Shown here: positions 1,607 through 63,311 of the stretch, one piece after another
Layout of the letters: the number at the start of each line of letters is the position of its first letter
Position numbering within the stretch: the first letter of the stretch is position 1
Origin: Siphonodentalium dalli
Taxonomy: Eukaryota; Mollusca; Scaphopoda; Gadilida; Siphonodentaliidae
Assembly (NCBI GenBank): GCA_032622095.1
Contig: CP136066.1
Span: 204,746,978 to 204,810,977 of the forward strand
DNA: 64,000 bases
Reading direction: 5' to 3'
Program-made: the position numbers and the translations under genes
Notes under the pieces: model-generated
What the model saw: the letters and a program-made list of their open reading frames with translations, nothing else
Told to the model about the DNA's origin: nothing
Databases searched by the model: none

Positions 1607-1682
1607 ATAAAGCCTTATATGCCTGTTTCTCTGAGCCGGAGTATGTTTGTTCAATCGCTTCCTCAATGGTAGCTCCACTTAT
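1607..1682 (-). CDS. Annexin exon D6: repeat 3, end (module D)
   Basis: 76-nt exon: ISGATIEEAIEQTYSGSEK to AYKAL, phase 0 in and phase 1 out. Acceptor CCTTCAG, donor T|GTAAGT. A MITE ends 15 bp from the exon. The two remaining repeat 4 exons of this module are not present between here and base 1. Confidence 0.87.
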
Positions 1683-4600
1683 CTGAAGGAAATGACATGA
1701 TGAGCGTATGAAATAATTAGAACGTGTTAATGACAAAACTTCAAAATAAACAAATGGTAGATAATAATATGACAGACTGCTATTCTCATAAATATATAAT
1801 ACTAGCAGGTGACCCGACTTTGTCTGGGCTTTAACCTTGAATTGACAATTTTGAAGGTCATGGTCAGGTCGGTGTCACTATTTGACCCGTCCAAAACACT
1901 TCCCGGACAAAATTACCCGAAGGTATCAAATTTCGTCGAAATCCGTCCAGCAGTTTTCCCGGCCATAGCTAACAGACAAACAGACAGAAGTCCCAAAATA
2001 TATATTAGATCATTTGTGGGTAACCGTTTCAAGGTGAAGGTCACCTTGGGCTGAAAAACTGACCCGATGAAAATCTCCCCCATTCCCAGGAACCCCTAAG
2101 TACGAACACAGACAACACGCTCATGTCTGTACACAGACACAACACGCTCATGTCTGGACACATACACGCTCTTTATCAACGACACTGCGGATACGAACGC
2201 TCTTTAACTATCACATGATTAACCCATGAATTTCCATTGTGGTGGCGGGGGATTGGAGAATGAGTGCTCTGACGTTCTCAGAAGCGGTGCGATGACACTC
2301 CATCTGGTAGTCCCAAAATATATATTAGATATATAATCTTGTTATGTTTAAATTAACTATTCAAATTAGAATAAAGTTAAACCACATGGCAGTTTGCGCT
2401 CCAAAATACACCTAATAATATTCGCTTTTGAATTTTTCCTGGTATCGAAATAGGTCAATAAATACTATGCAATACCTTTCTACATTATATTATATTTTCC
2501 AGAAAGACACATTAAAGTCATAAAAAATACAACTTTGAACACGATGATCTGGTCCCAATAAAAAAAAGACATTTTGTATTAATTGGAATTCCAGAATCGG
2601 AAACGAAATGTCCAGAAAATGTATATTGCGTTATCTTAAACACAAAACTATTTTAAAACTTCATGCACGGCTTTCTCTTCATTTTAAGCATGAACATTAT
2701 GTAATAAATGTATCAGAGCGACGTCAGATCTAGATTTTCTTCTCATGGTGTACAGTTCCAATTTTTAAGTGACCGCTGACAAAAATTGCACGGGCACTTT
2801 AACGAAACGATCTCAAATTTACCAAAAAATGTAAGAAACAAAAGATTTATTTTCAGCGCTATATTTACAAAGTTTTCAAAAATCTTCTGCATAGATATGT
2901 TTGAGATACATCTTACCAAATTATGTATACATTATAGTGGGGTTCGAATGATCGAGCCATGTCTGTTTGCATTTTCCACAGATAAATGTCCCAAAATCAC
3001 AACAGACAGCATGTTTATCCCCTAATGCCTTGTAAAGTCAATTTACCATTTCTCAGACCCGCACGAATGGTCCAGAAACCCCGCGAATGTAACCTTTTTA
3101 TTCGCATTTTATATGTCGGAAATAATTATAAGAAACTTTTAACTTTAAAAAATGATAAAAAATTGTTAGGCCAATGCATTCTCTTATATACAGTTACATG
3201 CTTTACATTATTTTTTGGCGTGAGAAATGGAAAATTGACAGAAACTAAAGGTCTAACAGAAACCACATATATTTGTGCCCCGCTATCCTCTGTGGAACAT
3301 AATCAATAGAAACAATCTAGTAATTTTTTAACCCTTCCATAATTGGAGCTTCCTGAAATTTTGCCAAAAACCTGTGCCAATGCATTCTCTTATATATGCA
3401 AGTCTCCCATAGCAAGCCTCACATATATAAGAGTATACATTGTCCTGACAATATTTACCTTCACCTTGTAAGCCAGTGCATTCTCTTATATTATGCTAGG
3501 CTCCCTATGGGGAGACTCGCATATATAAGAGAATGCACTGGCACAGGATCTTTAATGCTGCACCAGCGCAGCTCCCATCATGAAAAGGTTAAACGTTAAA
3601 AATGATTTTACTTACTTCTTTATATTTCTCAAAGATCTGCTGCCTTTGTTTGGGATTTGACATCACAGATTCTCGGAATGATTTTACTTACCTCTTTATA
3701 TTTCTCAAAGATCTGCTGCCGTTGTTTGGGATTTGACATCACAGATTCTCGGAATGATTTGTCTTTCTTGTTTATCAAGTTCTTCTCATCCTGGATAATA
3801 TAATGAAAAAACTTTTCATAAAGGACTTTAATGTAGAAATAAAATGTAATTTAACAAGTGCACCACACAGATTATCACAAAAGCCAGGTTCTGTAACATT
3901 TTGGCTTTTGTTTACATAACAAAATGTACAAACTTGACAATGACATACAATATACATGATTTATGATTGGTATAAGAACAACTTTCTGTTTATGGCAGTT
4001 TTAATGGATGTGGCAATTTTAACAGCAATACCCAGCGCGAAGGTCATCCATGCCTTTAATATCACATGATATCTATCTTTAGTGCTCTGACAAACAATGT
4101 TATTAATGTATCCTTAATGATCAAGACACCAAACCTTAAATAATTGTTGGTGGTTTGTCAGTATATTTTCTTGGCTGTTTTCTCTATGAAACTCACCGTG
4201 TATATTTCTTGGCTGTTTTCTCTATGAAACTCACCTTGTATATTTTCTTGGCTGTTTTCTCGGCGTCTCCCTCGTCCACCTTATCAGACGGTTTCTTGCC
4301 ACTGAGAACTACCATCAGTATATCATTGAGTTCTCCTTTAGTTTTCTTCTTCACATCAGATGCCATGTCTTTCTTATAATCTGGGAAAACGAGATAAGTT
4401 CAATATAATGTATGGACAATGGATACAAAGGCATAAAATGTAATGCTGCATTGAAGCCTTGAAATAGTGTGCCTGTCATTTGCAGAATGAGGTCCCCAGA
4501 GGGTGAATTTAGTGATGCTATCCGCATAGCAGGCTAGCATCACCAAATTCACCCTCTGGGGATCTCATTCTGCAAATGACACACACTATTTCAAGGCTTG

Positions 4601-7600
4601 GCTGCATTGAAATTGACTTGAAATTTGTGTCATTTGTATTAGTATGAATTATTTGATGAAAATGTTTCTAAAATATTTAATAAACTTTTCACTAAAGTTG
4701 ACTCAACTAATTTCACCCTTCTATCAGAAGTGTTTGGAAACAACTGAAATTAATTGCCGACAATGATATAAAGCAGATTAATATAGACGAAGCTATCAGC
4801 ATTATATTTACCATTCTTGTATCTGTCTTTGATCGGCTCCAATTCCTGAAACAAATATTTGTGGCAATGAATATCTTCCGAAATCTCAGAATAACTTTGT
4901 TGATATATGTAATAGGGTATGTTTATCTTTCTATACAGTTACTTTTACAAATATAACCTCAAAAACTTTAAAATCTAGATGCGAAGCTGATTGAATTGTG
5001 ATAATTAAAAACAAGAGCATCCACAGGGTGTGGCAAAATACGTCTGTGGTAATTTTAACAAAGGGCCATACCTCTGGTGAAAATTGGCAAGCAGAACCCA
5101 AATTCGTGCTTCACCTGTATTTTCGGCTAGTAAATTGCCATTCCAAATTTCAATCCATTCAGTTCAGACTTACTAAAGTTATCAACCGAAAACGAAAATT
5201 GAGTAAAAAATTCCAACAAAAAAGGCCAAATCATCATAATATGCATGCTTCAAGTATTCAAATAGATTCAAATGAAATTTCAAACTCACATCTGGTTCTT
5301 TAGTACAGACAACATCTACGAGAACCTCGTCCTTGAACTTTCCTTTGACAACCTGATTAACGCAGTAAGCTTCGTATTCCACAGGCTCCAGCATTAATGA
5401 AATGGCGAGGTTACGGAAGTCTCCAGAAAGGTCAGACTCAAGGTCATCAATACAGTTCTGAAAGTAATTTGCAAAATATGAAGCCATATAGCTACAACAG
5501 TCAGAAAATATTTCCCTTCCATGACTGGAGCTTCCTGAAATTTTGCGACAACCCTGTGCCAATGCATTAACTTATATATGAGTCTCCCATGGGGAGCCTC
5601 ACATATAAAAGAGAATAAATTGGACTAACAATATTTATTTGACCTTGTAAGCCAGTGCATTATCTTATATATGCGAGGATCCCTATGGAAGACTCACATA
5701 TATAAGAGAATGCACTGCCACAGGATATTTAATGCTGCAAAAGCACAGCTCCTGTCATGAACCTCAGGTTTAAGTAAAAAGGGCCTGATGCAATGGCTTA
5801 GACAGGACATTTATTTTCAGACCTGGTATAACAGTGTCGGACATAAATTTCAATATTAAGATTAAAGCTGAAAGTAGAAATGACAAAAACAATATTTTTG
5901 GAATTCATTTTCATTACAAAATGATCAATTATCTCTTCAAAAGAGTTGAGAGTAAATTAATTTCAATACTTGTCTGTGATATTCATATGAGAACACTCAT
6001 TCAATTAGGGACATATGACAAACTGCGGGATGGGATGGAATGTGGAACAGAATGTAAATCTGCAAATTTGAAATTGAGTGGGACGGCCAATATATTGGTG
6101 TAAGGAAAGGCCGATGTTCGCCCCAGCCAAATATACTAACCCCTGGTACTGTATTTTTACAGCGACAAAGCTATGCCCACAACCAAATTTGGTATTAAAA
6201 TGAAGATTAGCATCTATTGCACAACAGATATGTATTCATTCAAAAGAAGCGCTGATTTTTTGTATATCTAGAGACCGATTAACCCACCCATGCGAAGGAA
6301 CCACGAAAAATGGAAAACTATTTAGAATTTAGAATTTAGTACTGAAAAAGAAACTAATCCAAAAGGGGGATAATCCAGTTGTTCTGAGTATAAAATGAAC
6401 AGAAAAAAGAATGAAAGAATACAATGATACAGCTGAAATTTTAGAAAATAAGAAGAAATGCTAACCTGTTTGTATTTGTCTTGGTATTAACCCTTTACCC
6501 TACAGAACGGCCCTGTGCCAATGCATTCTCTTATATATGCGAGTCAACCATAGGTCGCCTCGCATATATAAGAGAATGCATTGGCTTAACACATTAAAAA
6601 TTATAAAATTGTTAAAGAATGTAAGAAAAAATGGTAAAAAAAGATTTTTTTTTAGGCCAATGCATTCTCTTATATATGCATTGGCACAGGGCATAACTGT
6701 AACCATCACAATGTGGTCAATGAGCCGGTTCCAATGATATCCATATTTGTATGGTTTTATTGAGACAGACCCAAGATAATTTAGGCTGTTGCAGCTTTAT
6801 TTGTATTTATCTTGGTATTAAATAGAATGCAAACCTGTTTGTATTTATCTTGGTATTAATAGAATGCTAACCTGTTTGTATTTGTCTTGGTATTAAATAG
6901 AATGCTAACCTGTTTGTAGTTGTCTTGGTATTAAATAGAATGCTAACCTGTTTGTATTTATCTTGGTATTAAATAGAATGCTAACCTGTTTGTATTTGTC
7001 TTGGTATTAAATAGAATGCTAACCTGTTTGTATTTGTCTTGGTATTAAATAGAACGCTAACCTGTCTGTATTTGTCTTGGTATTAAATAGAATGCTAACC
7101 TGTTTGTATTTGTCTTGGTATTAAATATAATGCTAACCTGTTTGTATTTATCTTGGTATTAAATAGAATGCTAACCTGTTTGTATTTGTCTTGGTATTAA
7201 ATAGAATGCTAACCAGTTTGTATTTATCTTGGTATTAAATAGAATGCTAACCTGTTTGTATTTGTCTTGGTATTAAATAGAATGCTAACCTGTTTGTATT
7301 TGTCTTGCTATTAAATAGAATGCTAACCTGTTTGTATTTATCTTGGTATTAAATAGAATGCTAACCTGTTTGTATTTATCTTGGTATTAAATAGAATGCT
7401 AACCTGTTTGTATTTGTCTTGGTATTAAATAGAATGCTAACCTGTTTGTATTTGTCTCGGTATTATATAGAATGCTAACCTGTTTGTATTTGTCTCGGTA
7501 TTATATAGAATGCTAACCTGTTTGTATTTGTCTCGGTATTTTGTATTTGTCTTGGTATTAAATAGAATGCTAACATGTTTGTATTTGTCTTGGTATTAAA

Positions 7601-10600
7601 TAGAATGCTAACCTGTTTGTATTTATCTTGGTATTAAATAGAATGCTAACCTGTTTGTATTTGTCTTGGTATTAAATAGAATGCTAACCTGTTTGTATTT
7701 ATCTTGGTATTAAATAGAATGCTAACCTGTTTGTATTTGTCTTGGTATTAAATAGAATGCTAACCTGTTTGTATTTGTCTTGGTATTAAATAGAATGCTA
7801 ACCTGTTTGTATTTGTCTTGGTATTAAATAGAATGCTAACCTGTTTGTATTTGTCTTGGTATTAAATAGAATGCTAACCTGTTTGTATTTATCTTGGTAT
7901 TAAATAGAATGCTAACCTGTTTGTATTTGTCTTGGTATTAAATAGAATGCTAACCTGTTTGTATTTGTCTTGGTATTAAATAGAATGCTAACATGTTTGT
8001 ATTTGTCTTGGTATTAAATAGAATGCTAACCTGTTTGTATTTGTCTTGGTATTAAATAGAATGCTAACATGTTTGTATTTGTCTTGGTATTAAATAGAAT
8101 GCTAACCTGTTTGTATTTGTCTTGGTATTAAATAGAATGCTAACCTTTTTGTATTTGTCTTGCTATTAAATAGAATGCTAACCTGTTTGTATTTGTCTTG
8201 GTATTAAATAGAATGCTAACCTGTTTGTATTTGTCTTGGTATTAAATAGAATGCTAACCTGTTTGTATTTGTCTTGGTATTAAATAGAATGCTAACCTGT
8301 TTGTATTTGTCTTGGTATTAAATAGAATGCAAACCTGTTTGTATTTGTCTTGGTATTAAATAGAATGCTAACCTGTTTGTATTTGTCTTGGTATTAAATA
8401 GAATGCTAACCTGTCTGTATTTGTCTTGGTATTAAATAGAATGCTAACCTGTTTGTATTTGTCTTGGTATTAAATAGAATGCTAACCTGTTTGTATTTGT
8501 CTTGGTATTAAATAGAATGCTAACCTGTTTGTATTTGTCTTGGTATTAAATATAATGCTAACCTGTTTGTATTTGTCTCGGTATTAAATAGAATGCTAAC
8601 CTGTTTGTATTTGTCTTGGTATTAAATAGAATGCTAACCTGTTTGTATTTGTCTTGGTATTAAATAGAATGCTAACCTGTTTGTATTTATCTTGGTATTA
8701 AATAGAATGCTAACCTGTTTGTATTTGTCTTGGTATTAAATAGAATGCTAACCTGTTTTTGTATTTGTCTTGGTATTAAATAGAATACTAACCTGTTTGT
8801 ATTTGTCTTGGTATTTAATAGAATGCTAACCTGTTTGTATTTGTCTTGGTATTAAATAGAATGCTAACTTGTTTGTAATTGTCTTGGTATTAAATAGAAT
8901 GCTAACCTGTTTGTATTTGTCTTGGTATTAAATAGAATGCTAACCTGTTTGTATTTGTCTTGGTATTAAATAGAATGCTAACATGTTTGTATTTGTCTTG
9001 GTATTAAATAGAATGCTAACCTGTTTGTATTTGTCTTGGTATTAAATAGAATGCTAACCTGTTTGTATTTGTCTTGGTATTTCTCCCTGATGTTTTGTCT
9101 CTGAGAGTTATTGTTCCTGGATATGACATCTATAATAGTATCCTCATCAGTTCCCAGCCCCTTCATTGCTTTATACAGCTTATCCCAGTCCTCATTAGAA
9201 TCATCCGGCTTCTCATCCTTTTTCTCTTCTTCTTTCTTTTGTTCCTGCTTTTCTTCTTTCTGTTGCTCTTGAACAATAGATTTCTTTCTCTTTTTCTCTT
9301 CTTTTTCTTTTTTCTTCTTCTCTTCATCCTCTTTTTTCTTCGTTTCCTTCTCTTCCTTTTCTTTCTGTTTTCTCTCTTCTTCCTCCTTTTTCTGTCTCTC
9401 TTTCTCTTCCTCCTTTCTCTGCTTCTCTTTTTCTTTTTCCTTCTTGTCATCTTCCTTCTGTTGTTTCTCCTGTTGGACGGGAACGGGAACAATGACTTGT
9501 TGCTCTTTTTGCTGCTCTTTTGTTTGTCCTGTTTCTTTTTCTTTCTTTGGTGATTTTACTTTCTTTTTCACATCTTTCTCTTTGATCCTAGGAAAAATGA
9601 GAAATTATTGTAAGTAGTTAAAGATTCAAGAATCAATTTCATCAGGATATTAATCGCTAGGAAACAAGGCATCTGGAGAAACAGTTTAATTAATTTTATA
9701 CCATTGTCGATAAGCCAGAGATCATACCTTAACCCTTTCAGTGCCAAGTCCGATTTTTGTATTAACCCATGTACCCTGTGCCAATGCATTCTCTTATATA
9801 TGCGAGTCGACCATAGGTCGCCTCGCATATATAAGAGAATGCATTGGCCTAACAATTTTTAATATGGCCCCTGACACTGAAAGGGTTAATTCTGTATGTC
9901 TTCATGTTGTGAAATAGTGACGACTGTCATGCAATGCAAAATGAAAAACAGTGTTATAATAATTGATGAATTTCTAACATTATTCCACAAATCAATATTT
10001 CAGTACATTATGATTTGACAACAACAAAATTGTTTGAAAGTAAATAATTTAACACTGAAAGTATGAGCTGATATAAAAGTTAGGGTGAATGAAGAATTCT
10101 CAATACATGTTTAGCAAGCAACTTGTCGAATATATCTGCTAATAATAATTTGATCGACAGAGCTGTGGAAATGTCATTAACCCTTTACCCAACAAACCGG
10201 CCAAAATAGGGCAAATAAAGCTTCAACAGCCTAAAATATCTTCGGTCTGTCTCAATAGAACCATACAAATATGGATATCATTGGAACCGGCTCCTTGACC
10301 ACATTGTGATAGTTACAGTTATGCCCTGTGCCAATGCATTCTCTTATATATGCGAGTCGACCATAGGTCGCCTCGCATATATAAGAGAATGCATTGGCCC
10401 AAAAAAAATCTTTTTTTAACACTTTTTACCATTTTTTCTTACATTCTTTAACAATTTTATAATTTTTAATGTGTTAAGCCAATGCATTTTCTTATATATG
10501 CGAGGCGACCTATGGTCGACTCGCATATATAAGAGAATGCATTGGCACAGGGTCGTTCTGTTGGGTAAAGGGTTAACAAAACGGATTAAATCCTTACTTG

Positions 10601-13600
10601 TCTCCTATAACAGCTAGCAGTAGTTTCCTGTAATCTCCACTCGTTTCTGATTTTATTTCTTTTATCACGTTCTTCTCATGAAGCTCCTCAAACTTAGCAC
10701 CGACGGCTGGAAGATCCTTCTGGAAGATACAGAGAATATAGCATTCATTGAAAGCGATGAGTTTCTGAATGGGGAAGCTTTAATGAAATGAATTGTAAAT
10801 GAAACATATATATTCAGTTCTAATTAAAAATAGTCTCCCGAGTCAAAACATTTGACAATTTGAGTATAACTGTAGTTACACTGCGCTTAAAGGCATGGGT
10901 TGCATTCATTGCAGAATTATTCATATTTGTTCAAATAGCCATCAACAGAAGGAATATTAAAATATATATAGTTTTGCTCATATGCCAAACATAATCAGCA
11001 CATAAATAGTATATTGATCATCGAAGTACGATGGTGTACGTAAACAAGAACCTGCTCGTGTTACAGAAGTTTTGCTTCTGTTTGCATAACACAGCGCAAT
11101 TCTATTGGTTAATCACACACAAATGATATAAACGCTCTTTATTATTTCCATGTCAGGAAAACAGTAACAAATAACGCTCTTTATGTTTACCATATCCGGA
11201 TCTAAACAAAAGCCAGGTTCTGTAACGCTTTTTGCTATTTGTTTACATAACAAAGGAAAAACATTTGACAATAACATACTGTTTATGCCATATTTCTGAT
11301 TGGTATAAGATCAAAGTCTGTCTATATTTTACTATTCTTTCTGTTTATGGTGGTTTTTGATGAAGCTGAATATTTTAATAGCATACCCACCACCAATGCT
11401 GCCCGTATCTTTAACTTACAGCCTATAGCCACTGTTATGAAACTCAACAATCAACCGATGAGCATCGAACTCATGTACAGTAATGCCCTAAGTAATCGAC
11501 TCCATAACCACAGCAGAATTATGGGTAACTTTTCAGGATTTAGTCGGAAAAAGTTACCCATAATTCTGCTGTGGTTATGGAGTCGATTACTTAGGGCATT
11601 ACTGTAACTGTCAACACAATGCTACAAGTCAAACATACACTAAAACCTTTGAGCGACCAACCCCCATTTCACAAATTGGATAATGATAGTTTCACATTCA
11701 CTCTTGTAAACCCTTTCAGTGTCAAGTCCGATTTTTGTATCAACCCATATTTCCTTGATCATTTAATCAAATTTATTGATTATAATAATGTGATACATTG
11801 ATGGAAAGAGCTTTTAGATTGGTTGATACAAAAATCGGACTTGGCACTGAAAGGGTTAAAACTAGACCCAGGTTGCATTACAGTCAACACTCAGTCTAGA
11901 GACTCTGGTAAATTGATTTCAGAGATGAACTGGGAATCCCCAGCTCACGACAGCTCATTAATATTCATGTTTTAAATTATGCACTGTTTACTGTTTTGAT
12001 TGAGCGACAAAGCCCACATGGGTTAATAACAATGGCCATAACCTGTAGGCGTTTCTGTGGATAAATAAGCCTTGTAGAATATTCTCATTTTCTGGTTTCT
12101 GTGAATCAATGCCTATTGTATGCAATACATTATTAATTGTTATGTCAAGAATTTCTATTTCACCATGTTTTATTTGTACAGTCTCACTTTCTCTATCACT
12201 TCCACTTTCCATAATACTATATTATTGTGTGGGGCTTATAATTGTAAATAAGTGAAAAGGTGTGAATAATTATTGATTTTGCAGGAAGTTATTGATTGGT
12301 TGAGCAACACTTTCTTTAATGCACAAGTATTTTCATTGGCGCGATTCCTCCCATTTGAAATATGTTATTCCATGGGAGTCCCCAGACCGTAAGTTGATTG
12401 AAATGAAACATGGTCTAGTTTTAACAAGACTGTGTTGCAGTGTGCTATGTGAGAAAAATGTCAACCCACCCACTCATGAAAACTGATATAAAACTTACTT
12501 CTTCTCTAGACACGACGACCCGACTGAGCAGATCTTCATTGGTTCCCAAACCGCTGCATGAGTCGGCAAAATTATCAGCACAGTGAGCAGGAGGGTCTTC
12601 TTTGGACTTCACTGTTGCATGTTAAAATATCAGATACAGAAAAATTTAGGTTGCATGAATATAACAAGCTGGTTAATTATCTCACAGAAGGCATGCATGG
12701 TAGTCATCTGATATTAATGATGAAATATATGAAGTAAAGACGGTTAAAATGCATTCAGCATTGCAACACCTAATATTACAACATTGGGACCTTTATTGAA
12801 CTAAATTAAGCACCATCTATCGGTTATTTTAGAGATAGTTGCATCAGAAATCAAGCGTTAATTTATGACCATGGTCCTCTAAACATGACGTAAAGAGATC
12901 ATTTCTGAAAGAAATGAAGAACGTTCGAAAAAAAAAAGAAAAAAATAGTGCATGGATCCTAAGACCACTAGTCATTTTGGCATAGTTAACTCCATGCCAT
13001 GCAATATCTATATAACAGTCTACTTCTCCCTAATAAATTAATAGGGAGAAGTAACTTCTCCTAATTTGAAACCAAGGCTGTCAATAGTTTGAAGATGATA
13101 TAAACAATTAAATATTTCACCATTTCTGTCCTAAATGCTCATTGGCAAGTAGTTATCCCTGAGGAAATGTTCACTACTGAACATTTCCCACCAATGAATA
13201 TGAATCATTCTGCTCTTGTATCATCTGTTATTATGTCTGTCAAACTGAATGGGAGAATGTTGTCAAACTGAATGGGAGCTAGAATGTTCTTTCTGTCTGC
13301 CATCTGCTTTTATTACCTGAACAGGCCTCCAAATGAATAATAGACTGTTCCAATGTATACTTTTATAACTCAATGGGAGAATGCAATTTGTAAGAAAGGG
13401 TTAAATAATAACTCACATAGAGCCAGATATGCTTGTTTCTCTGATCCTGAGTAAGTCTCTGCAATGGCCTCCTCAATAGTAACCCCACTCAACTGAAAGA
13501 ATCATTATTAGAATGAAGAAGTGTCATTTACCGCCTCAAGAATGAATTTCTCGAAGGAAGTATGTATCGCCTCAGAAAAGAAAAAGGCAGAAAATAATTT

Positions 13601-16600
13601 GCAGAGCTCTTGATTATCTGTCAAGTCTGAATTGCTCAAATTATAATTTAAAAAAAGTTCAATGTCAAGGGTGTCATGTGCCCCAATGCTCAGTTTAGAG
13701 AGTGTGCCATGCTAAGTGTTTATATGCATGGAAAATTATTATTTCAAGAAGGTCAATCACTGAGGAAACTGAATGAATAAAATCCATTGTCTATACCTCA
13801 TATTGACTTTTCACTATTCCAAAAGATGTTCAATTACAACCGTTGGTACTTTAGATTGTGATGGAAGGGTGGAAAATCTTGCTATTTTATTCTTCTAAGT
13901 CCAACAATGTCAATAACTCTGACAAACAGACATGGAGTAAACCTGTCAGTATCCTTCCTTAAATCCTGGTCTATTAACATCCAAATAACACACATTTTGG
14001 TCTATTAACATCCAAATAACATTCAAGTCGGATCATTGCTACTGAAGTTACAATGCAGAATGTCTGTACAGAGTGAAAATTAAATATATTTCTAAGTACA
14101 ACAAGGGCTGGTAACAATTAATGAACTTAGCCCATGGTAAGTGGGTAACCTTTCCCCAAACTGGGCTATTACCATACCAAAGCACATCAAAATTTGATGA
14201 TTGGCACCAGAGTAGGGTTGAAACGATTAATCGACTAGTCGAAGACGACGCTGAAATGTCAGAACGTCGACTCTGAATTTTGCCGTCGACTAGTCGGAAC
14301 ATAGTGTATTAGTTCCATGTATAACATTTTCAAGATCGATTCCGACATAAACGGTGTTAACTGCGCGTAAGTTACAGTAAGTATAACGTTTGGTGGCACC
14401 CGGAATTGACAGTGTTACTAGTATAGACACACACGGTGACCCGACTATTACTTGAAAGAATGAAATTGACAACACAATGTCTCACTCGTCGTTTGAGGTC
14501 AAAGACATCACTGCGACATGATGGCAATGATTGACGCGGCTTTATCGCTTGTCGGAGACCGCTTTGATCTAGACACTGTGTATATTTAAATTGATCAATT
14601 GAAGGTCGCTTTAGGTGACGTCATTGTTGCTACCGTGTATAAATGATACTGACATTAAGAACTGGCTATCGTTTTCAACAACATAGCCTATTCTATAGGG
14701 CGTATTTAGTCGGAACATTAACATTTTATAGTGACACCGCTCGGCACCGGTTTATTGGTGATCACGTGACTAAACGAAATCTCGAACGCAGATATTAAAT
14801 TTAAAACCTGTATAAATGATCGAGTTTCTAATCATTATCCACCACATGTCTAATTATATAATTACATTCAGTGTGTTGGATAAATATCAAGATGTTTACA
14901 GTATTATTTCCCAAATAAATTGGTGTTTATGCAGGGAAATGCGCTACGCAATAGACCGCCATTGCATCAGTCATCAGTGTACGCCATGTATGATGAATTT
15001 TCCGTACCATGTTATGTTTGAAAGTTTTGATATCGGGTACCGACTAGTCGACGCAACGTGACTTATGGGTCTCGACTAGTCGACTCTGAAATTCACTAAT
15101 CGTTTCAACACTACACCAGAGTTACAACGCTAACTGTTCATATGGAGACAAAAGTAACAAATTTCCAAGTCAACAAGAGCTGCAATTCAGGTAAAAATTA
15201 TGTAACAAAACCTGTAATATGAACGGTATCCTTTCCCCCAACTGTGCTATCACCATGCCAAAAGGACAATGAAATCCGATAGTTAACACCCGATTTACAA
15301 GGTGAAACATACGGACGTATATTTTGCCCTGAATATCCCAATGACAAAACCTTAATTTTCATTTTGGTTTTATTACCAACATCAGATCGATATCAGCAGG
15401 ACCCACTAACAGTAGGTTTTTGGAGAGCCAGTTGAATGGTAAGTATGTTATCAAACATTATAAAACTCACGTCTTTGTGGTTGTTAAAGATTTTCTGCCG
15501 CTGATCTGGGTTAGACATCACAGCTTCTCGGAATGACTTGTCCTTCTTGTTTATTGGGGTTTTCTCATCCTGAAGAAATGATGATAAAACCGATTCACTC
15601 AATCAGAATTTTTGGTCTGAGAAAAGGAAACAAATTTGCATGACCTTATATAGTCTAGCAAGGCTGAATTCAACAACTATGTAACATATCCTTTTGGAGC
15701 TTTGTCAGTTTATTTATGAAACTGACCTTGTATATTTTCTCTATCAAACTCACCTTGTATATTTTCTTGACTGTTTTCTCTATGAAACTCACCTTGTATA
15801 TTTACTTGGCTGTTTTCTCTATGAAACTCACCTTGTATATTTTCTTGGCTATTTTCTCGGCCTCTCCATCATCCACCTTATCAGACGGTTTCTTGCCACT
15901 GAGAACTCCCATCAGTATATCATTCAATTCTCCTTTAGTTTTCTTCTTCACGTCAGACGCCATGTCTTTCTTGTAATCTTAAAACAAAAAGACCATCATA
16001 ATACAATCATTCAAAGAGAAACCAAGCATGCTATACATATAGGTTATCACCACCATGAGGGTTTCCGAGATCTGTATTCAGGTTGAGCTATATCCTCTGG
16101 GCTGTATATCAATGAGTCCTCCAGGATAACCATGCAGACCTTGAAATAGTTTGTGTCTGTCATTTGCAGAATGAGGTCCCCAGAGGATGAATTTAGTGAC
16201 GCCATCACGGCATAGCGGGCTAGCATCACCAAATTCACCATCTGCGGACCTCATTCTGTTGAAGTCTCAACTGCTATGGGAGACATACGAACAGATTGAA
16301 GTTCCCCAGTTGAAGTTGGTGATGTTCACCCATTAGTCACCTCGATAATACATTTTATCTTCTGCAAATTAGGCGATATAAACACTGAACAGAAGGGAAA
16401 AAGTAACTAAATACATTGTTAATTTGAGATGATAGATACTTCCCAGAAGATAAGGCCTAAGCAGAATGAGTTCCCCAGAGGGTAAATGACATGGGAATTA
16501 TGCCATATTGTGTATGAAAGGGCACACCACCTAGTTGACGTCGCATTGCGTCACTGCGAAGTATTAATTATTCAGTGTGTTAAATATAGGTCCGTTTATG

Positions 16601-19600
16601 CATAAGTGTTGAAATTATCAAAACATTGCTGTTTTTGTAGAATGCAATACATTTTCAAGTGTTTTTTCGTTCGTCATAGCCACTGGAAATATATCATTTG
16701 ATTTGAAATGATATATGTATATGTCTGATTATAAAGAGAATAGAAATAATTAATGCCAATTGCCCATCCACATATAAATCTGCTGGGATTGTTGTATACA
16801 TGGTTTAGATATCATTCCATAGCAACCATTTCAACTTTCATGTTTGACAGCTGAGTACAGAATGAGGCTCAGGCATGCTCTACATTCAACTGTGGGTCTG
16901 TCCATCAAAATATTCAATTTAAAAAATAACATGTTCTGTTGCAGAAACCTCAAGCCTAATAGTTTATAACGTACCTTCCTTGTATTTATCTTTAACAGGC
17001 TCCAACTCCTGTAACAGAAGATATATATGAGCTTAGGGGTTTGTTACATGAGCCAGAGTAACTCAGTCTGCCGAGTGGTGTGGGCGGTAACTAAAAACGT
17101 CACTCTCACGACGCGAACATTCTATTGGCTGATGTCATGTTAAGTCACAACGAATCATGTTACAATCCAATTTAACAGGGATGACTCTCTGTTATATGAG
17201 CCGAGTTGTCCCGGCTGAACGAGTTATCCCGGCAAGGCGGGATGGGTTATCCCAGCCTACCCAGTTTGAGCAGAACATGAAACATATATATTCAATATAT
17301 ATTCAACTAGACTGTGACCAATGGGCCTGAGGATAGATCCATGGAACAACTTTAACAGGTTTCTTAGTAGTCAGCGTAATTTAAAACATACCATCTAATA
17401 GTCTTAATTATATACAACTGTTAACAATGCAAGACAACTCACAATTAAATACTGTGTAGAAGTAACAATAGATTATAGGTCAGTGAGTGCTTGAATATTT
17501 TTGGCTATTCATACATAATATTATAGTCTTTTGATGCTTAAAGTTAGAAGTCACACTTGTCTGATGCCCATCAATGTTCTCGCTGGTCCAAAATAAATCT
17601 TGTAGCCAAAATTTTAGCCATTTCCAGATTTTTTAGCAAATAGAAAAATTTTAAGCCACTTTATACTCCAGGGTATAATCAGCATTTAATAACTCAGATT
17701 TTTAATTTATTTGTGATATTGTCCCTGTTACTATAAATGGTTCAATATCAGTAAAAACGATCATAGAATAAAGAAATAACATGTACAATATAGCACATTC
17801 ATTTATCATATCGCGCATGTAGTTTGCAACATACAGAAGCATATACAATGCAATTGATTGTAGATACCGCTGGGTTTTGCACAATCATCCTTGCTTGAAT
17901 AATTGTCGACAATAGATTGGGCACGTCCCTCAAATGATAGCCACCATGGTGTACACACATATTTACTTTTCATCGAGCTATGGTATTGATGGGTGAGAAT
18001 AATATGAAATGAAAACCCAAAGTTTACGCAACGACTTAATCACACACACCTTCAAACTGCAGTGAGATGACTGCCTTTTGTGCAACTGCTATTAGCTGCA
18101 TTCACTGGCACTCAATGGTAATTAGATCCATGACAAAGACGGTGTGACGCCAACGCCACTGTCTTTTACGCTGCCATTTTTTTCGCCATTTGACAAGTTA
18201 TTTTAGCAATTTCTATTTATTTTTCGCATTTGGCTAAAATGGCTTACGGCAGTGCGAATACTGATGTCCATTGATATTCAACTTACCTCTGGAGTTTTAG
18301 TACAGATGACATCCACGAGAACCTCGTCCTTGAACTTTCCTTTGACAACCTGATTAACGCAGTAAGCTTCGTATTCCACAGGCTCCAGCATTAACGAAAT
18401 GGCAAGGTTACGGTAGTCTCCAGAAAGGTCAGACTCAAGGTCATCTATACAGTTCTAAAACAGAATATTAATTATGTGATTGATGTTATGACACCACATC
18501 ACGGACCAAAGAGAATTAGTGGAATTTTTCAGATTGATTTTTCAGGTATCCAGCACGATTTTCAAAAGCTTACAGAAAATGCGTTTGTATATGATGTCAA
18601 AACTGAGGCCATATATTTTTTTTAAGCATTTAAACAATAATCAAGCACTGATTATCTGCTTCAGGTTCAATCATAAATAGAGGATCTCTATTGAGGAGCA
18701 ATTCTATACAAAATTTATAAAAAGAGTGCAGTAATTTAATTAAAAATAACATTGATTTCCTTATCACAACCAAAGAAAAGAAAATTAAGACACCTTCAAG
18801 AAAAAATATAGATCCATTTTAAATGTGTCTTTTCATGTTGATAAAATTGTTCAACCGCCCTTATCACCTATGCTTATCTCACAGTCAACACTAAATAACC
18901 CAACACAAATCGAATATCATAATTATATTCTAATTAACATAATAATAACATTGGTCGATATCATTGGGCTAAGCTCTTATGTCACTGCGCATGCTGATAA
19001 TACATGTGAGTTTTACTAAAAATATGAGTCCAGGTTTTGGGGCTAATTATGTGAAAAAACAAATTAATGCACAGTCAGACAATTTTTCAAAGCCAATAAT
19101 GATTATAGCATATTGATTGCATTACTGTACTCCATCTCACGTCTAATTGAACTGAGTTTAGACGGTGTAGTTATATTCCACCTGAGAATTTGATGTAGTG
19201 ATGATAATCAACCTTTATTAACAGAATTTAGAATTTTATCACATAATCACATTTTAGCAAGGAAAATATAGATTTCCTTATCACAACCAAAGAGAAAGTA
19301 AACCTCTGTTTTAAATATTTCTTTTCATGTTGTCAAAATTGTTCAACCACCCTATGATGTTTATCTCAGTCAACTCTAAATAGCCCAACACAACAACACA
19401 AATAGAATGCTAACCTGTTTGTATTTGTCTTGGTATTAACCCTTTACCCAACAAACCGGCCAAAACCGGCCAAAACCGGCCAAATAAAGCTTCAACAGCC
19501 TAAAATATCTTCGGTCTGTCTCAATAGAACCATACAAATATGGATATCATTGGAACCGGCTGCCTGTCCACATTGTGATGGTTACAGTTATACCCTGTGC

Positions 19601-22600
19601 CAATGCATTCTCTTATATATGCGAGTCGACCATAGGTCGCCTCGCATATATAAGAGAATGCATTGGCCTAAAAAAATCTTTTTTTTAACACTTTTTACCA
19701 TTTTTTATTACATTCTTTAACAATTTTATAATTTTTAATGTGTTAAGCCAATGCATTCTCTTATATATGCGAGGCGACCTATGGTCGACTCGCATATATA
19801 AGAGAATGCATTGGCACAGGGCCGTTCTGTTGGGTAAAGGGTTAAATAGAATGCTAACCTGTTTGTATTTGTCTTGGTATTAAATAGAATGCTAACCTGT
19901 TTGTATTTGTCTTGGTATTAAATAGAATGCTAACCTGTTTGTATTTGTCTTGGTATTAAATAGAATGCTAACCTGTTTGTATTTGTCTTGGTATTAAATA
20001 GAATGCTAACCTGTTTGTATTTGTCTTGGTATTAAATAGAATGCTAACCTGTTTGTATTTGTCTTGGTATTAAATAGAATGCTAACCTGTTTGTATTTGT
20101 CTTCGTATTAATAGAATGCTAACCTGTTTGTATTTGTCTTGGTATTAATAGAATGCTAACCTGTTTGTATTTGTCTTGGTATTAAATAGAATGCTAACCT
20201 GTTTGTATTTGTCTTGGTATTAAATAGAATGCTAACCTGTTTGTATTTGTCTTGGTATTAAATAGAATGCTAACCTGTTTGTATTTGTCTTGGTGTTAAA
20301 TAGAATGCTAACCTGTTTGTATTTGTCTTGGTATTAAATAGAATGCTAACCTGTTTGTATTTATCTTGGTATTAAATCGAACGCTAACCTGTTTGTATTT
20401 ATCTTGGTATTAAATCGAATGCTAACCTGTTTGTATTTGTCTTGTTATTAAATAGAATGCTAACCTGTTTGTATTTGTCTTGGTATTAAATAGAATGCTA
20501 ACCTGTTTGTATTTATCTTGGTATTAAATAGAATGCTAACCTGTTTGTATTTGTCTTGGTATTAAATAGAATGCTAACCTGTTTGTATTTGTCTTGGTAT
20601 TAAATAGAATGCTAACCTGTTTGTATTTGTCTTGGTATTAAATAGAATGCTAACCTGTTTGTATTTGTCTTGGTATTAAATAGAATGCTAACCTGTTTGT
20701 ATTTGTCTTGGTATTTCTCCCTGATGTTCTGTCTCTGAGAGTTATTGTTCCTGGATATGACATCTATAATAGTATCCTCATCAGTTCCCAGCCCCTTCAT
20801 TGCTTTATACAGCTTATCCCAGTCCTCATTAGAATCATCCGGCTTCTCATCCTTTTTCTTTTCTTCCTTCTTTTGTTCCTGCTTTTGTTTTTCCTTTTTC
20901 TTTTCCTCTACTTTTTTGTCTTCCTTCTTTTGCTCTGATTTTGGAGAATCTTTCGCCTTGTCTTTTTTCTTATCAGGTTTTTCTTTCGGAGATGGACTTC
21001 TCTGTTTTTCAGGTGATTTAGCCCTTTCTTTCTTCTCGGGAGACTTTTCCCGCTTCGCTGACTTTGCTCTTTCTCTCTCCTCTCTTTCTTTCTCTTTTCT
21101 TGGTGACCGGCTTTGGGGACGTTCCGGGGAAGCATTTCTGCGTTTAGCAGATTTCTGCTGGGCACTAGGAGAGGGAGTCCTCGACCGTTCGCCCTCCCTT
21201 GTCGAACCTCGATCAGCTAATATAGCCGCGGGATAAATTGATGGTCTTGGACCTGCTTTTTCTTCTTTTTTCTTCTTCTCATCTTTCTTTTTATCGTCTT
21301 TCTTCTTTGACTTATTGTCCCTATAAAATCAAGGATATAGTGTGTCTGACATTTGAGGAATGAGGTCCCCAGAGGGTGATTTGGTGATGATATCACCCTA
21401 AAACTGCATAATGTCTGAAAAGATGAATTGAGTGCTTATGTCTGCCAGATTATCGTGGTTGAATAATATTTATGTTGTTTTGGTCCTTCACACAATAAAA
21501 AAATAATTCTCGAAATGGCTGCCAAAAACTAAAATATGGAATGAAAAATATTTGAGTTTTAATTTCTTGCAGAGTCATTATTTCAGATGGTGGACTGAGC
21601 GCATACCCTAATTGGATATATTTCCTGTTAAACTCTCCATCGACCTGCCTCCAAAATCTGGGTTTTGTTTTATAAACCCACTTTTTTACATAATTGGAAC
21701 ATAACTCTCATGTTGTGAGTTTGAACATGTGTTGTTATTGTACTATAGCATACATTGGTTACAGAAGATAATGATTTTCCCCTTCAAAGTAATTGTTTTA
21801 AATTGAGATTTTTTTTAAATTCACAAATGGGGTGCCTCCTTATTAAACAGGATTATGTTGATTTTACTTTTTATCTAGTACAGCAACAAGTAGTTTCCTG
21901 TAGTCTCCACTCGTCTCGTCTTTGGTGTCTTTTAACAGTTTGGTCCCAAACAGCTCCTCATATGTGGAACTAATAGCTGGAAGATCCTTCTGAAATCAAA
22001 ATAACAATTGGTAACTCTTCAATATATATGCAGAACAACACCAGTGGGTTAATGTGTTTGTTGATATGGCATGAGGGCTAACCAATAATGCTAACAACAG
22101 TCAACTATAGTATCACATTGCGCAAAAGTATTATTTATCAACATTTTTTTCAACGAAATTTGGCCGCATTGTCAAATATCTAATACCCAAAGGCACTTGA
22201 TTTTAGAGTTAACCATGTTCATCCGCAATTTTTCCCGAGACCGTCGGCTTGACGAATATTTGTCAGGCCACCAAAAATTACATATCTCGGGAAATAACAA
22301 ATTTCAAAAATCAATATCTCATCACTCTGAGCATTGATGGATGGGTTCCTCGACTCGAATCAGATAATTTTTACCCCCGAAGCAAAAGAAATAGTAATTT
22401 GGGAGCGTTAATTCTGATTATGCATCTCTAAGCAATTCGAACAATGACCATTTTCGCGTGAGTTCCACAGGTCTCCAGAATAAAAATTGACCCCACCTCC
22501 AATAATACTTGAGTTCAGTGTTCGCTGTGTCTATAGGCTGGTCACCACCCCTGAGGGAATGACTTTCATGATGGTTTCATATGGAAGGATAGAATGAGAG

Positions 22601-25600
22601 GTGCAGCCTTGAGCTCTATCCTTACACAATGGCAAAAGTGTCGTATCAACAAACCCATTAACTCATGTGTCGATCTGCGTTTATTACACATCATCCATCC
22701 TAGAATTTGTGCATAAAAAAATACAGGCTTAATACAAGGGTTAGTTAGGCACATTTAGGACTTGTTTTGTCATGTGTGATGATGCTTTTATTTTATGGTT
22801 CCGGTTTCATGGTTGAGGCGAACGTCATGTACGTCATTTGATGTCGACAAGATGCATAACGGAATGTATGTTCCATATGAATTTGTACATATGGAACAGC
22901 AAAACACTGTAATTCTAGGAACAAGCATGTAAAAATACTCAAATAAAACAAGAATCGCATCAGAGATGTGGGATTGAGTTTCGAGAGCTATGACACAAAA
23001 ATCAGACTTGGCACTGAAGCTGACAGGGTCATTGTCACAAGGCTTCAGTCACATTCGTAGCCAACTTTTTAAATCGATCACAAATGTAGCCAGCTTTTCA
23101 CCGGCGATCACATTCATAGCCAGCTTTTCTAATTCCATGCTTTAATGGCGCGAAATATGACATCATATATATATATGTTATAAGATGTACCGTACTAATA
23201 ACAAATTAAAAGTCAAGTTGTTTTTCATCCACCAACTCAGAAAAATGAGATTAACCTATAATCTTCTTCATTGCATGAGGCTTGCATGAATATGAAAAGC
23301 TGGCTACAAATGTGATCACCATAGAAAAGCTGGCTACATTTGTGATCGATTTAAAAAGCTGGCTACGAATGTGATCGATGCCTTGTGACAATGACCCCAT
23401 CAGCGGCACTGAAAGGGTTAATAATAAGTCTCAAATTCCTAATATCAACAAATCAGCTGATATTTGTTCAAGTTATTGCACTATCGCTATAAAATATAAT
23501 GAAAAGGAACTAATAAAGGGCTGTAACTCTGCTCAAAGTAAACAGACCTGGATCTAGTCAAGACGATTCAAACAATAGAAAAACCCATTTCCTGCTAAAA
23601 TTAACATAAACATAATAACACTCTGCCAACTTTATCCCTAGATGAGTAAGTTATCCCTAAGGAAATGTTCAGATAATAAGTTCAACAGTGAACGGTCGGC
23701 GACCTAGATGACTTTGGTGAGCCAGAAGGAGACTTGTCTGGCTACTGACACAAGGGCTGCATGCTGTAATAAAATGAAAGTAAATCAAACCTCTTCTCTG
23801 GATATAACAACCCTGTTGAGTAGATCTTCATTAGTTCCGAGTCCAGTGAAAGTCTCGTGCAGTTTCTTCGCATAGGATGCTGGAGCATCGTCATCTTTTG
23901 AAACTGTGGGATAAATAATTACTGTCTTCAGACATTACTTTTATAATTTCATAGACTTAATCCCAACAAGCGCTATTTGATATAATTTAATCCCAAAATG
24001 ACCACAAATCGAATCAATTGTACCATAATTCATATTCTCATCCTCACATTTATGTGTGGATGAGAGGAATTCTCTGAAATAGAGAGGGAAGAAATCAGAG
24101 GGAGTGAATATGTTAACATAACATAGCAATTCAATTATCAATTGACCTCAATTAATTGACACCTCGGTATTGGGAAGACAATGACCTATTACCAGTATAT
24201 GTACTATGTTATTTTAACATTTTCACTCCTGAAGATATTTGTACGAACATATGCAAATTGGAATCAGTGTCTTACCTAAGCTGGTGTAAGAATCTCTCAT
24301 TTCATCTTCATATGACTGGTTCACAGGGTGATTTACCTAAGCTGGTGTAAGAATATCTCATTTCATCTTCATATGACTGGTTCACTGACCTACCTAAGCT
24401 GGTTTCAATCTCCATACAGTTGCGTCCCTTTGCTATGCTTCGCGCTCCGGAACTGGTTTGTGCTTCTCATTTCATCTTCACATGACTGGTTCACAGGGTG
24501 ATTTACCATAGCTGGTGTAAGAATATCTCATTTCATCTTCATATGACTGGTTCACAGGGTGACCTACCTAAGCTGGTTTCAATCTCCATACAGTTGTGTC
24601 CCTTTGCTATGCTTCGCGCTCCGGAACTGGTTTATGCTTCTCATTTCATCTTCATATGACTGGTTCACAGGGTGACTTACCTAAGCTGGTGTATGCATCT
24701 CTCATTTCATCTTCATATGATTGGTTCACAGGGTGACTTACCTAAGCTGGTGTAAGCATCTCTCATTTCATCTTCATATGACTGGTTCACAGCATCAGCG
24801 ATCGGAATTCCACTTAGCTGTAATAATAACAATAATGGTGCTTATATAGCGCTTATCTCCAGTACCATGAGCGGACCCTAAACACTTCATGTTACAGTGA
24901 AACCTCTCCAAACCAGACCCTCTACAATCCGAATCCCTCTCCATTCCGAACGAATTGTTCGGTCCCGAATTTACCCAAGTGCATTGTCACTAAACCTCTG
25001 TACTCCGAACATCGGACGGCTTTTCTGGTCGACAAGTGAACGAATACATTAATTTTCACCTCCGAAATCCGAACACGAAAAGCAATACCAACCGAACGAA
25101 CGCACGTGGGGTAAATTGACATAATTGATGCTGATCGAGCTCTTGCTGGTATATACCAGGGATTCTTTAAAAGTTTAGATGTCTGGTTAATTAAAACTGT
25201 TTTGGTGACTGCATGCATACAAACCATCGTGATTGAACCAATGATGCACAGCCGAATAACAATAAATAAGAAAACTGCATTTCCAATTATGTATAATACT
25301 TTATGTAAAATACCCGGCCCAGACACATTGTTTATCTCAATGTTTTGACAACATTCCCATTGTTCACTAATTGGCAGCTGAATTCAAACTCAAGTGATTT
25401 TATTTGATAATTAGCAACCACTATTCAAAGTGACATTAAACTCTATTCATCAATACTGTATTCACACTTCACTTAGCCAGTACAGCCTCAAAGGAATCGC
25501 GCTGAGTTTATCTTATCACCAGCAGTAACTATGCAGTGTTACATCATGTGGACATGTCACGCTCTGCTTGATTTCCGTATTGTATCTACAGTACCGATCA

Positions 25601-28600
25601 ACACAATGTGACGCTAATTCAAAAGTTGCGCAGTTGGTGTGAAATTTTTATCACACTTTGCCATGAGTTGGGCTGACACTAATGACCCAACTTTTAGGAT
25701 TAATGGAGATCTTTTGTGACATAATTATGGGCACAATGATTAATGCAAGATAGGAGTTAATCCAATTTTTCACTTGCAAGCACCAACAGACATTCCCATT
25801 ACGTTGTCAATGGACATCACTTAGGTAATTTTCCCGCCTCCAGTTTTCAATGTACACTATTAAGGGCTCATATTGGGAAGAGTTAATTAATTTGTAAAAA
25901 CATGCAGGTATAATTTAGGTGCATTTTATTATAGCCATGTGTTATCTATTGTTATTTATATTTTATTTGGTACTTTATTGAATAAAGTTAAATTAATTAA
26001 CAATGATTGGTTGTACTTCAAAAACTCATAGTATGAACGTCAATACATTCCGATCGTCATGCGATTTTCTATAAACCGAACACCTCTCTAAACCGAACAG
26101 AAGGGCCGGTCCGAACTCCAAAGGGTGTTCGGTTTGTAGAGGTTTTATTGTATTACCCCAGCTGTGAGTAAGCGGAGTCTTGCGTCTGCTGCTATTTTAC
26201 AGACGCTTCACTAGAGCGGGTAAAGCTTACTTAACAACCAGGTCCCTATTTCTCGTCTAGGTACAACGAAGCGAGCACAGTATAATGACCTTGGCGCAAG
26301 ATCACAGTGAGTGGCTCTACTGCACACATACACACCACTTAACCCTTTCAGTACCAGGGGCCAATCTCATCGGCCCTAATTTACGGTCTGTAAAATCGGC
26401 CCTAAAAAAAATAAATAATAAAATAAAATACATTTTTTAGATTTTTTTGGGTTGAATTTTTTTTGGGTATGCTTAAGCATGCTATAGCGAATTTAAAAAC
26501 AAACTGGATAAAACCTTAGGGGCATGTTATAACTCAAAACTATCACCAAGTATTCATAGTAATAATTTTGATGCCCATGAAAAACGTAAGATTCCCTGGC
26601 ACTAAACCTACAAAATAAGTCTGTTAAAGAATATAAGAAAAAATTATTAAAATTGTAAAAAATAATAACAAATGATGAAAAATTGTTAGGCCAATGCATT
26701 CTCTTATATATGCGAGGCGACCTATGGTCGACTCGCATATATAAGAGAATGCATTGGCACAGGGTATATGGACAATGATACAAAAATCGGACTGGCACTG
26801 AAAGGGTTAACAACCAGGTCCCTATTTCTAGTCTAGGTACAACGAAGCGAGCACAGTACAATGACCTTGGCGCAAGATCACAGTGAGTGGCTCTACTGCA
26901 CACATACACACCGCTTAATCTGACCAAGCCACTGTTGTGTAGATGATACTCCACTGATGGCTGCGGACTCATGCCGGGGCAGTGACACAATTACAGGTCC
27001 GACACTCTAACCACTACCGAAATCCTTTAATGGAAAAGAGCATACTAGTAGTTCCATAAGAAATGGTCGGGACCAGTGTTCACACTGTCGGTAGCCAAAT
27101 TAGCCAATGGCTAATATTTTTCGAATTTGGCTAATAAAAATTTCATTTGGCTAAAATTTTGGCTAAACTTTTTTTGAACCCAAATTGAAGACTGAAAGCA
27201 TGGAGCCAGAAAGCTAATTAATAAAAGCGCTCAATAGATCGACATTCAAGACGAAGTTAGGTGACGAAATTATTTCATTATTTTCGTACTTATGAAATAT
27301 CGTACAAAGGGAAACCCGATCGACAACTCTATCAACCAAGCGATCACAAAGTAATATGCAATCATCTTTAGTTTTCTCAAGACGGACATTCAAAGATGCA
27401 TTAAACCGACCGTGGTTGAATTATGACAATGTGAAGAAAGCAATGTTTTGTAAAGTGCATTGACGCCGGTATATAAGCAATTTGTTCGTAACATGTGCAG
27501 GCTGTTTTAATCTGGAGAAAGATTACGTCACTCTGCACGAAGCAACAAAAGGTCATTATTAATTTTTACATTTAATCCCCTAATCCCCCATTCAGCCCAT
27601 TGTCTGTCTGGTCACTCACGGCGCGCCTGCACAATGCATGTTTATGATGACATTGTAGTTATGATGGTCGAGGTTTATGAGCACCAAGTGTAAGACAATA
27701 GCTTAATCAGCCAAATGTGCATCACGACAGATATTTTGTGGCTATTTGTCGTCAATACCGATACAGTCAAAAATAATATGCATGCTTTTATGACAGATTG
27801 TAATTTGATAATGGCGTAACAATATTAAGTTACATGTATTAGTTTCCAGATGTCACTTAGATATTTTCGCAAGGCTAAATATTTAATGATTTAAAAATAG
27901 ATATTGATATAAAACAAAAAAATAATGACATTAAGAAGGACAATACCGGGTTACCCCCCCACCCCCCCCCCCCCCCCAAAATCACTCTTTCACATAAAGA
28001 TTAATAAATTTTTAATAAATGATACATATAAAAATACTTGTAGTTCATCAAAATTATTTAAATTATTGTGTATTTTACCTTTATCTGTTAGATTTTACGT
28101 TTTAGTCATCAATTGTGAACCGACCAGAAAACGATGATTTAATTTGGCCAAAGTTTTTTTTAATTTGGCCAAAAAACATTTGGCTAAAGTTTTTTTCATT
28201 TGGCTAATAAAATTTTCATTTGGCTAAACTTTTGGCTAAAGTTTTTTTCGGTCCAGCGCGAACACTGGTCGGGACGGACCCAAATACGAACTTGAGTGGA
28301 ACATTCTCATCAGTAAATTTCCCAATGACCAAAATGTTTTTCGTGGGACAAGACGTCAAATTTTATATATAAACAAATGCATTCAAAGTATTTGTGAAAT
28401 ACATCTTAGGCTTCCTCTTTAACAGCTCTAATTTTCTTCACATGGTTTACAGATGCAATTTTTCACGACTGGTTGTTAAAGACGTAGGTATATTTTGAGA
28501 TACCTCTTACCACATTCTGTGTACTTATTTTGGGGTTCGAGCGAACCATGTCAATTTAAGCATGTTTAACCCTTTCAGTGGCAGGTCCGATTTTTGTATC

Positions 28601-62609: not shown

Positions 62610-62837
62610 CTGAAACAACAATGATTGAATGTGAAATTTGAGATAATAATATAATAATTGACTATATATAGTGCATAATCCAACTACATGTTCTCATATG
62701 GTTTTTCAAACAATCATCACAGCTAGCCACTATTACAAATATGAGAGACTTTCTGTATATTTCTATATAATTTAATCACAAGCTGTCAATTCACAAAATA
62801 CTATAAAACAATTGGTTGTCACACAATCACCCATTAA

Positions 62838-63229
62838 CCCTTTACCCAACAGAACGGCCCTGTGCCAATGCATTCTCTTATATATGCGAGTCGACCATAG
62901 GTCGCCTCGCATATATAAGAGAATGCATTGGCTTAACACATTAAAAATTATAAAATTGTTAAAGAATGTAAGAAAAAATGGTAAAAAGTGTTAAAAAAAG
63001 ATTTTTTTTAGGCCAATGCATTCTCTTATATATGCGAGGCGACCTATGGTCGACTCGCATATATAAGAGAATGCATTGGCACAGGGCATAACTGTAACTA
63101 TCACAATGTGGTCAAGGAGCCGGTTCCAATGATATCCATATTTGTATGGTTCTATTGAGACAGACCGAAGATATTTTAGGCTGTTGAAGCTTTATTTGGC
63201 CGGTTTTGGCCGGTTTGTTGGGTAAAGGG
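62838..63229 (-). mobile_element. TTAA MITE F1, full length, inverted
   Basis: TTAA at 62834-62837 and 63230-63233, two palindromes inside. Very similar to the copy at 50550. Confidence 0.88.
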
Positions 63230-63311
63230 TTAAGGTTATTTCTCGATCATCTGAATTTCTTGATTATTTACCGCTACAGCATCAACTAATTAACCCAGAA
63301 ATCAACAGCAG

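Follow-up and report, generated by a model that had tools for sequence, protein, structure and literature searches.

Tandem repeats across 5' splice sites of a multi-annexin gene in Siphonodentalium dalli resemble the mirage minisatellites of amphioxus

In one gene of the scaphopod Siphonodentalium dalli the ends of several exons are repeated in tandem together with the 5' splice site that follows them, which raises the question of how such arrays arise, why they span donors and how splicing can proceed across them. The stretch of DNA analyzed here, referred to as the window, is 64,000 nucleotides long (GenBank assembly GCA_032622095.1, contig CP136066.1, positions 204,746,978 to 204,810,977 of the forward strand). 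The first-pass annotation had described six exons of this gene with a tandemly repeated exon end and 5' splice site, and TRF recovered all six arrays (Table 1).

The host is a multi-annexin gene whose modules I, II and III comprise one annexin core each, with the Lys-rich e4 exons as linkers. A match to Pfam Annexin (PF00191, E 2.3e-51) was obtained with hand-joined pieces of module II, and the best-scoring proteins listed were those of gastropods (Nucella lapillus, 44% over 73% of the 303-residue query), multi-annexin proteins of Babylonia (42%), Elysia (39%) and Haliotis (39-40%) being among them. All introns between the 24 exons in the window are GT-AG and the intron phases match between modules. 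With the exon-proximal donor at every array, the 24 joined exons yield a single open frame of 1422 residues with 0 stops; as the exon boundaries were set by hand from paralogous exons, this frame is open partly by construction. Separate tandem annexin genes were considered and rejected, since an overlapping AA/GTAA donor joins e3 in frame to the next Lys-rich e4 and since Babylonia areolata P0122, a predicted protein of 1719 residues, holds several cores in one chain. That the cores of P0122 are connected via Lys-rich linkers supports the one-gene model. All three e3 donors (60984, 21868 and 10598) overlap an in-frame stop, each e3 ending AAG-TAA; splicing of e3 would let the protein continue and retention of its intron would lead to an immediate stop after the annexin core. 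Furthermore, e5 and e6 form one fused exon in module I (35019-35217) and are separated by an intron in modules II (16975-18454) and III (4812-5457), a difference that reflects gain or loss of an intron between modules.

Table 1. Host gene, donor-spanning arrays and the MITEs within them (positions in the window).
Feature	Position	Strand	Description
Multi-annexin host gene	1607..62609	minus	24 exons within the window; Pfam Annexin, gastropod relatives
III.e8 array	3601..3775	minus	76-bp unit = 61 exon + 15 intron bases; 2.3 copies (TRF); 2 donors
III.e7 array	4161..4261	minus	38/39-bp unit = 27 exon + 12 intron bases; 2.6 copies (TRF); 2 donors
III.e4 array	6450..9081	minus	38-bp unit = 23 exon + 15 intron bases; 60 donors detected
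TTAA-site MITE in III.e4 array	6490..6803		shortened; orientation opposite to II.e4 MITE
II.e7 array	15715..15861	minus	39-bp unit + shortened 27-bp distal copy; 4 donors
II.e4 array	19400..20715	minus	38-bp unit as in III.e4; 23 units + one past MITE; 24 donors
TTAA-site MITE in II.e4 array	19439..19844		orientation opposite to III.e4 MITE
I.e1b array	24273..24792	minus	61-bp unit = 49 exon + 12 intron bases; 174-bp higher-order unit; 7 donors

Every array spans the 3' end of an exon plus the GT of the 5' splice site on the minus strand, with 23-61 exon-derived bases per unit and an intron-derived part that consists of the first 12-15 bases of the intron. The donor pattern was counted 99 times in the six arrays, that is 6 authentic and 93 further donors. 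In detail, the III.e4 array holds 61 units in 6801-9081, the last being partial and one carrying a deletion, and one distal unit past the MITE; TRF reported it as 6800-9081 with period 38 and 60.5 copies, the II.e4 array as 19842-20715 with period 38 and 23.1 copies, and the II.e7 array in several rows with periods of 27 and 39. One unit of the I.e1b array contains a filler of ~60 bp that is absent from the exon and was copied along as the 174-bp higher-order repeat. An interpretation of the arrays as coding repeats was rejected, as three of the unit lengths (38, 61 and 76 bp) cannot be divided by three and the II.e7 array, with its 39-bp unit, runs into an in-frame stop at +27.

The MITEs within the two e4 arrays belong to a TTAA-site family of ~400 bp with internal palindromes, of which further copies are located at 10177-10581, 40648-41055, 50545-50945 and 62833-63233. 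Every e4 unit offers a TTAA, and the opposite orientations of the two elements indicate independent insertions at e4-unit TTAA sites. Both adjoin the distal-most e4 unit, which would be consistent with arrays that grew later on their exon side. Dating the arrays by these elements was dropped: the II.e4 MITE diverges by 4.7-6.2% from four full-length family copies, and such a divergence bounds the age from above only. Among the other tandem repeats in the window are one of four perfect 46-bp copies at 51328-51512, at no annotated splice site of the intron of 23 kb that separates I.e3 from I.e4, and one with a 36-bp unit, a multiple of three, at 37221-37297 within the Lys-rich coding exon I.e4. 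The arrays might also be false duplications introduced by the assembly, and the copy number of long arrays in assemblies is in general often unreliable. However, the units bear substitutions and indels of their own, two arrays are broken by MITEs in opposite orientation and four unit types occur at six places, which makes an artefact highly improbable.

A comparison of the paralogous modules revealed a patchwork of homogenised and diverged exons. Synonymous divergence between modules II and III is low in e4 (0.07 over the last 60 codons), e5 (0.17) and e7 (0.20) and high in e3 (0.73), e8 (1.21) and e1 (1.21), whereas e2 and e6 are saturated, e6 comprising 11 codons only. I.e4 has a dS of 0.23 to both II and III and is homogenised as well, yet without an array. 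In a one-strand blastn search with an E threshold of 1e-4, little similarity between modules was detected outside the exons beyond the arrays, exon edges and dispersed elements. Hence, e4, e5 and e7 were homogenised by recent gene conversion. Conversion within one gene that is limited to exons concerns three modules for e4 (9059-9235, 20693-20845 and 37026-37203) and two modules for e5 (5290-5457 and 18287-18454) and e7 (4235-4380 and 15832-15977). Because e4 and e7 are homogenised between II and III, their shared arrays are best counted once, so that the six arrays go back to four founders (one each for the e4 pair, the e7 pair, e8 and e1b), in accordance with the four unit types distinguished at first pass. 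The array-free exons I.e4, I.e7, I.e8, II.e8, II.e1 and III.e1 keep the same introns in the same phase, and the arrays must therefore have been added later, to existing introns.

These data bear on the idea, raised at first pass, of a mutational process tied to exon-intron borders. One candidate is an aborted event of gene conversion from one paralogous exon to another. DNA synthesis on the paralog would overrun the homology into the non-homologous intron and re-enter upstream, so that the exon end would be left duplicated in tandem. Four of the six arrays are indeed located in the recently homogenised exons e4 and e7, and detectable homology between modules stops near exon borders. On the other hand, e5 of modules II and III and I.e4 were homogenised without acquiring arrays, III.e8 and I.e1b carry arrays although they are diverged from the paralog tested (dS of 1.21 to II.e8, saturation for II.e1), and such a process should affect acceptors, too. 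We consider it quite unlikely.

The distribution of duplications over donors and acceptors was analyzed by local alignment of positions -30 to +10 of each donor to the next 800 bases, with 40 shuffles each and a mirror test for acceptors. Six of the 24 donors were duplicated, with scores of 61-75, as against none of the 24 acceptors, which reached scores of 12-20 in the mirror alignment over 800 bases with shuffles; within the window, the earlier statement that only donors and no acceptors are spanned is thus correct. The remaining 18 donors also scored 12-20, within the range of the shuffles, and relics of arrays are not visible there at that sensitivity. After merging, TRF arrays with a period of at least 20 and a score of at least 60 numbered 24 in the window. 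Six of them lie over a donor and none over an acceptor, 5 are confined to exons and the other 13 are located elsewhere. Founder units placed at random in the window hit a donor 0.49 times on average (P = 0.0014 for at least 4 matches), whole arrays 2.1 times (P = 0.007 for six), and zero acceptor matches occurred with P = 0.087, all of these being post hoc values for a gene that was singled out because it carries arrays. The enrichment of donors over random placement is real within the window (P ~0.001, post hoc). The ratio of donors to acceptors by founder is 4:0, for which a two-sided sign test gives 0.125, and 0.031 only if the six arrays were independent. Therefore, the former view that the bias argues against random slippage stands as far as donors exceed random placement and falls short in the comparison of donors with acceptors.

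A process restricted to donors is not needed for a 4:0 ratio, which is compatible with symmetry, and the mirages of amphioxus, as described in the accessible excerpts of two papers, occur at donors and acceptors (PMC3087553, PMC3902484). We regard it as unlikely that a lineage-wide process, perhaps abortive gene conversion at the exon borders of modules, repeatedly makes donor-only repeats throughout the genome and independently of cephalochordates.

At III.e8 the 8-bp sequence AAATCATT is present at both breakpoints, in the exon just before the unit and in the intron at the unit end, and the copies join there. By eye, about 3 bases are shared at the I.e1b breakpoints, and clear microhomology was not found at those of e4 and e7. 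A range from none clear to 8 bases is ordinary for small tandem duplications. It was also considered that direct repeats render donors prone to slippage. In a search of 60 exon against 60 intron bases, the longest shared words had a mean length of 5.2 at array-free donors (n=18, at most 7 bases) and of 5.8 at acceptors (n=24); shared words of 9 bases occur at two of the acceptors, neither of which has an array. This explanation was rejected in the absence of any excess over acceptors: as donor words are no longer than acceptor words, sequence-driven slippage fails to explain the donor preference. Since 9-base words occur at array-free acceptors, it is the position of AAATCATT at both breakpoints and not its length that favours slippage or microhomology at III.e8.

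None of the 93 further donors detected would preserve an open frame, as each is either frameshifting or preceded by an in-frame stop. The first in-frame stops past the authentic donors follow at +26, +27, +39, +60 and +78 nt. Ahead of a stop there are only the donors at +38 and +76 of both e4 arrays and the one at +38 of III.e7, all of which are frameshifting. From the reading frames, normal splicing would be predicted at the arrays. The e4 units differ from their consensus by 1.0-1.6% per site, the distal unit being divergent in module III and not in module II. Their substitutions amount to 34 in the 23 exon-derived columns, 14 of them a single recurring variant, and to 12 in the 15 intron-derived columns; exon-derived columns are hence no better conserved than intron-derived ones, which fits with inner units being intron.

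Selection might nevertheless retain multiple donors, either as splicing enhancers that offer many U1 sites or as alternative exon ends, a possibility already raised at first pass. The GT is unchanged in 82 of the 82 e4 units having both bases, as this would predict, but with 46 substitutions over 38 columns two given columns are missed by chance with a probability of about 0.08, and the G at -1 changed 5 times. Moreover, no further donor detected keeps the frame and the paralogous exons manage without arrays. Neither the substitutions in the e4 units nor the frames of the array donors give any sign of selection for extra donors, and we judge this explanation very unlikely.

Taken together, we assume with a probability of about 0.78 that the arrays are mirage-type minisatellites, i.e., ordinary tandem duplications across a donor that were tolerated through use of the first donor and then grew. 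Initially, a segment of 38-76 bp would have been duplicated by slippage or end joining, a process suggested by the visible breakpoints. The duplication could survive if the sequence past the first donor became intron, with which the frame test agrees. Unequal exchange may then have raised and homogenised the copy number, as the near-identical units suggest, and ectopic gene conversion, which is evident in the homogenised exons, may have spread the e4 and e7 arrays to two modules. From established knowledge of splicing, a duplicated acceptor would present an earlier AG to the scanning spliceosome, frequent use of which would add sequence to the mRNA, and probably disturb it more often, whereas a duplicated donor should be more forgiving, as the first donor and the unchanged exon would still be usable. 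If ordinary duplications passed through such a filter of survival, a donor excess would arise without any special process; the filter seems not to be absolute, given the acceptor mirages of amphioxus. What speaks against the mirage reading is that the donor enrichment (P ~0.001) exceeds what unfiltered random slippage gives, and that the filter which should account for it is a proposed one.

Gain of introns is reportedly possible through tandem duplication of AG/GT segments, as proposed by Rogers in 1989 (cited in PMC3087553), and the arrays might accordingly represent intron gain under way. They are alike in that a tandem duplication holds AG/GT, which is contained in the units, and the authors of the amphioxus globin work made the same proposal for mirages in the excerpted text. 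However, the annexin introns predate the arrays, since paralogous modules that lack an array have them in the same phase, so that this idea is largely refuted and its probability next to negligible.

Minisatellites spanning donors are already a known class from the amphioxus papers, and the statement of the first-pass annotation that such a class had not been described does not hold. According to these excerpts, mirages are tandem units over exon-intron boundaries in Adh3, the globins BflGb6 and BflGb9 and troponin C, with units of 10-72 bp in Adh3 and clusters of 2-7 copies (PMC3087553, PMC3902484); one of the two papers describes comparable repeats in PGBD5 of lancelets and also mentions troponin C (PMC3902484). 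Another parallel is provided by human segmental duplications, in which minisatellites occur at the borders of exons and introns (PMC2812944). As far as excerpted, these minisatellites likewise lie in recently duplicated, near-identical sequence, but some of them alter the exon/intron structure of transcripts, whereas the first annexin donor keeps the frame open.

Our analysis places minisatellites of the mirage type, reported in these sources from lancelets, in a mollusc-like gene with arrays of 60 and 24 donors. Such long rows offer a natural setting in which to test how the spliceosome chooses the first among near-identical donors, with the array-free paralogs as controls, and the observation would gain weight if a true donor bias existed genome-wide. 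The similarity to the mirages, as excerpted, includes a minisatellite-like unit that spans the boundary and the many units with splice signals. Mirages evolve in concert within a cluster except for its edges, and the annexin e4 units, of low divergence but with a divergent distal unit in module III only, might do likewise. Furthermore, with the boundaries set by hand, the first annexin copy is the authentic exon end, which leaves a normal donor available. In contrast, the mirages of these excerpts belong to cephalochordate hosts, which is no part of their structural definition, affect both boundaries and are given with 2-7 copies, whereas the annexin gene has gastropod relatives, is affected at donors only and reaches 60 donors in its largest array.
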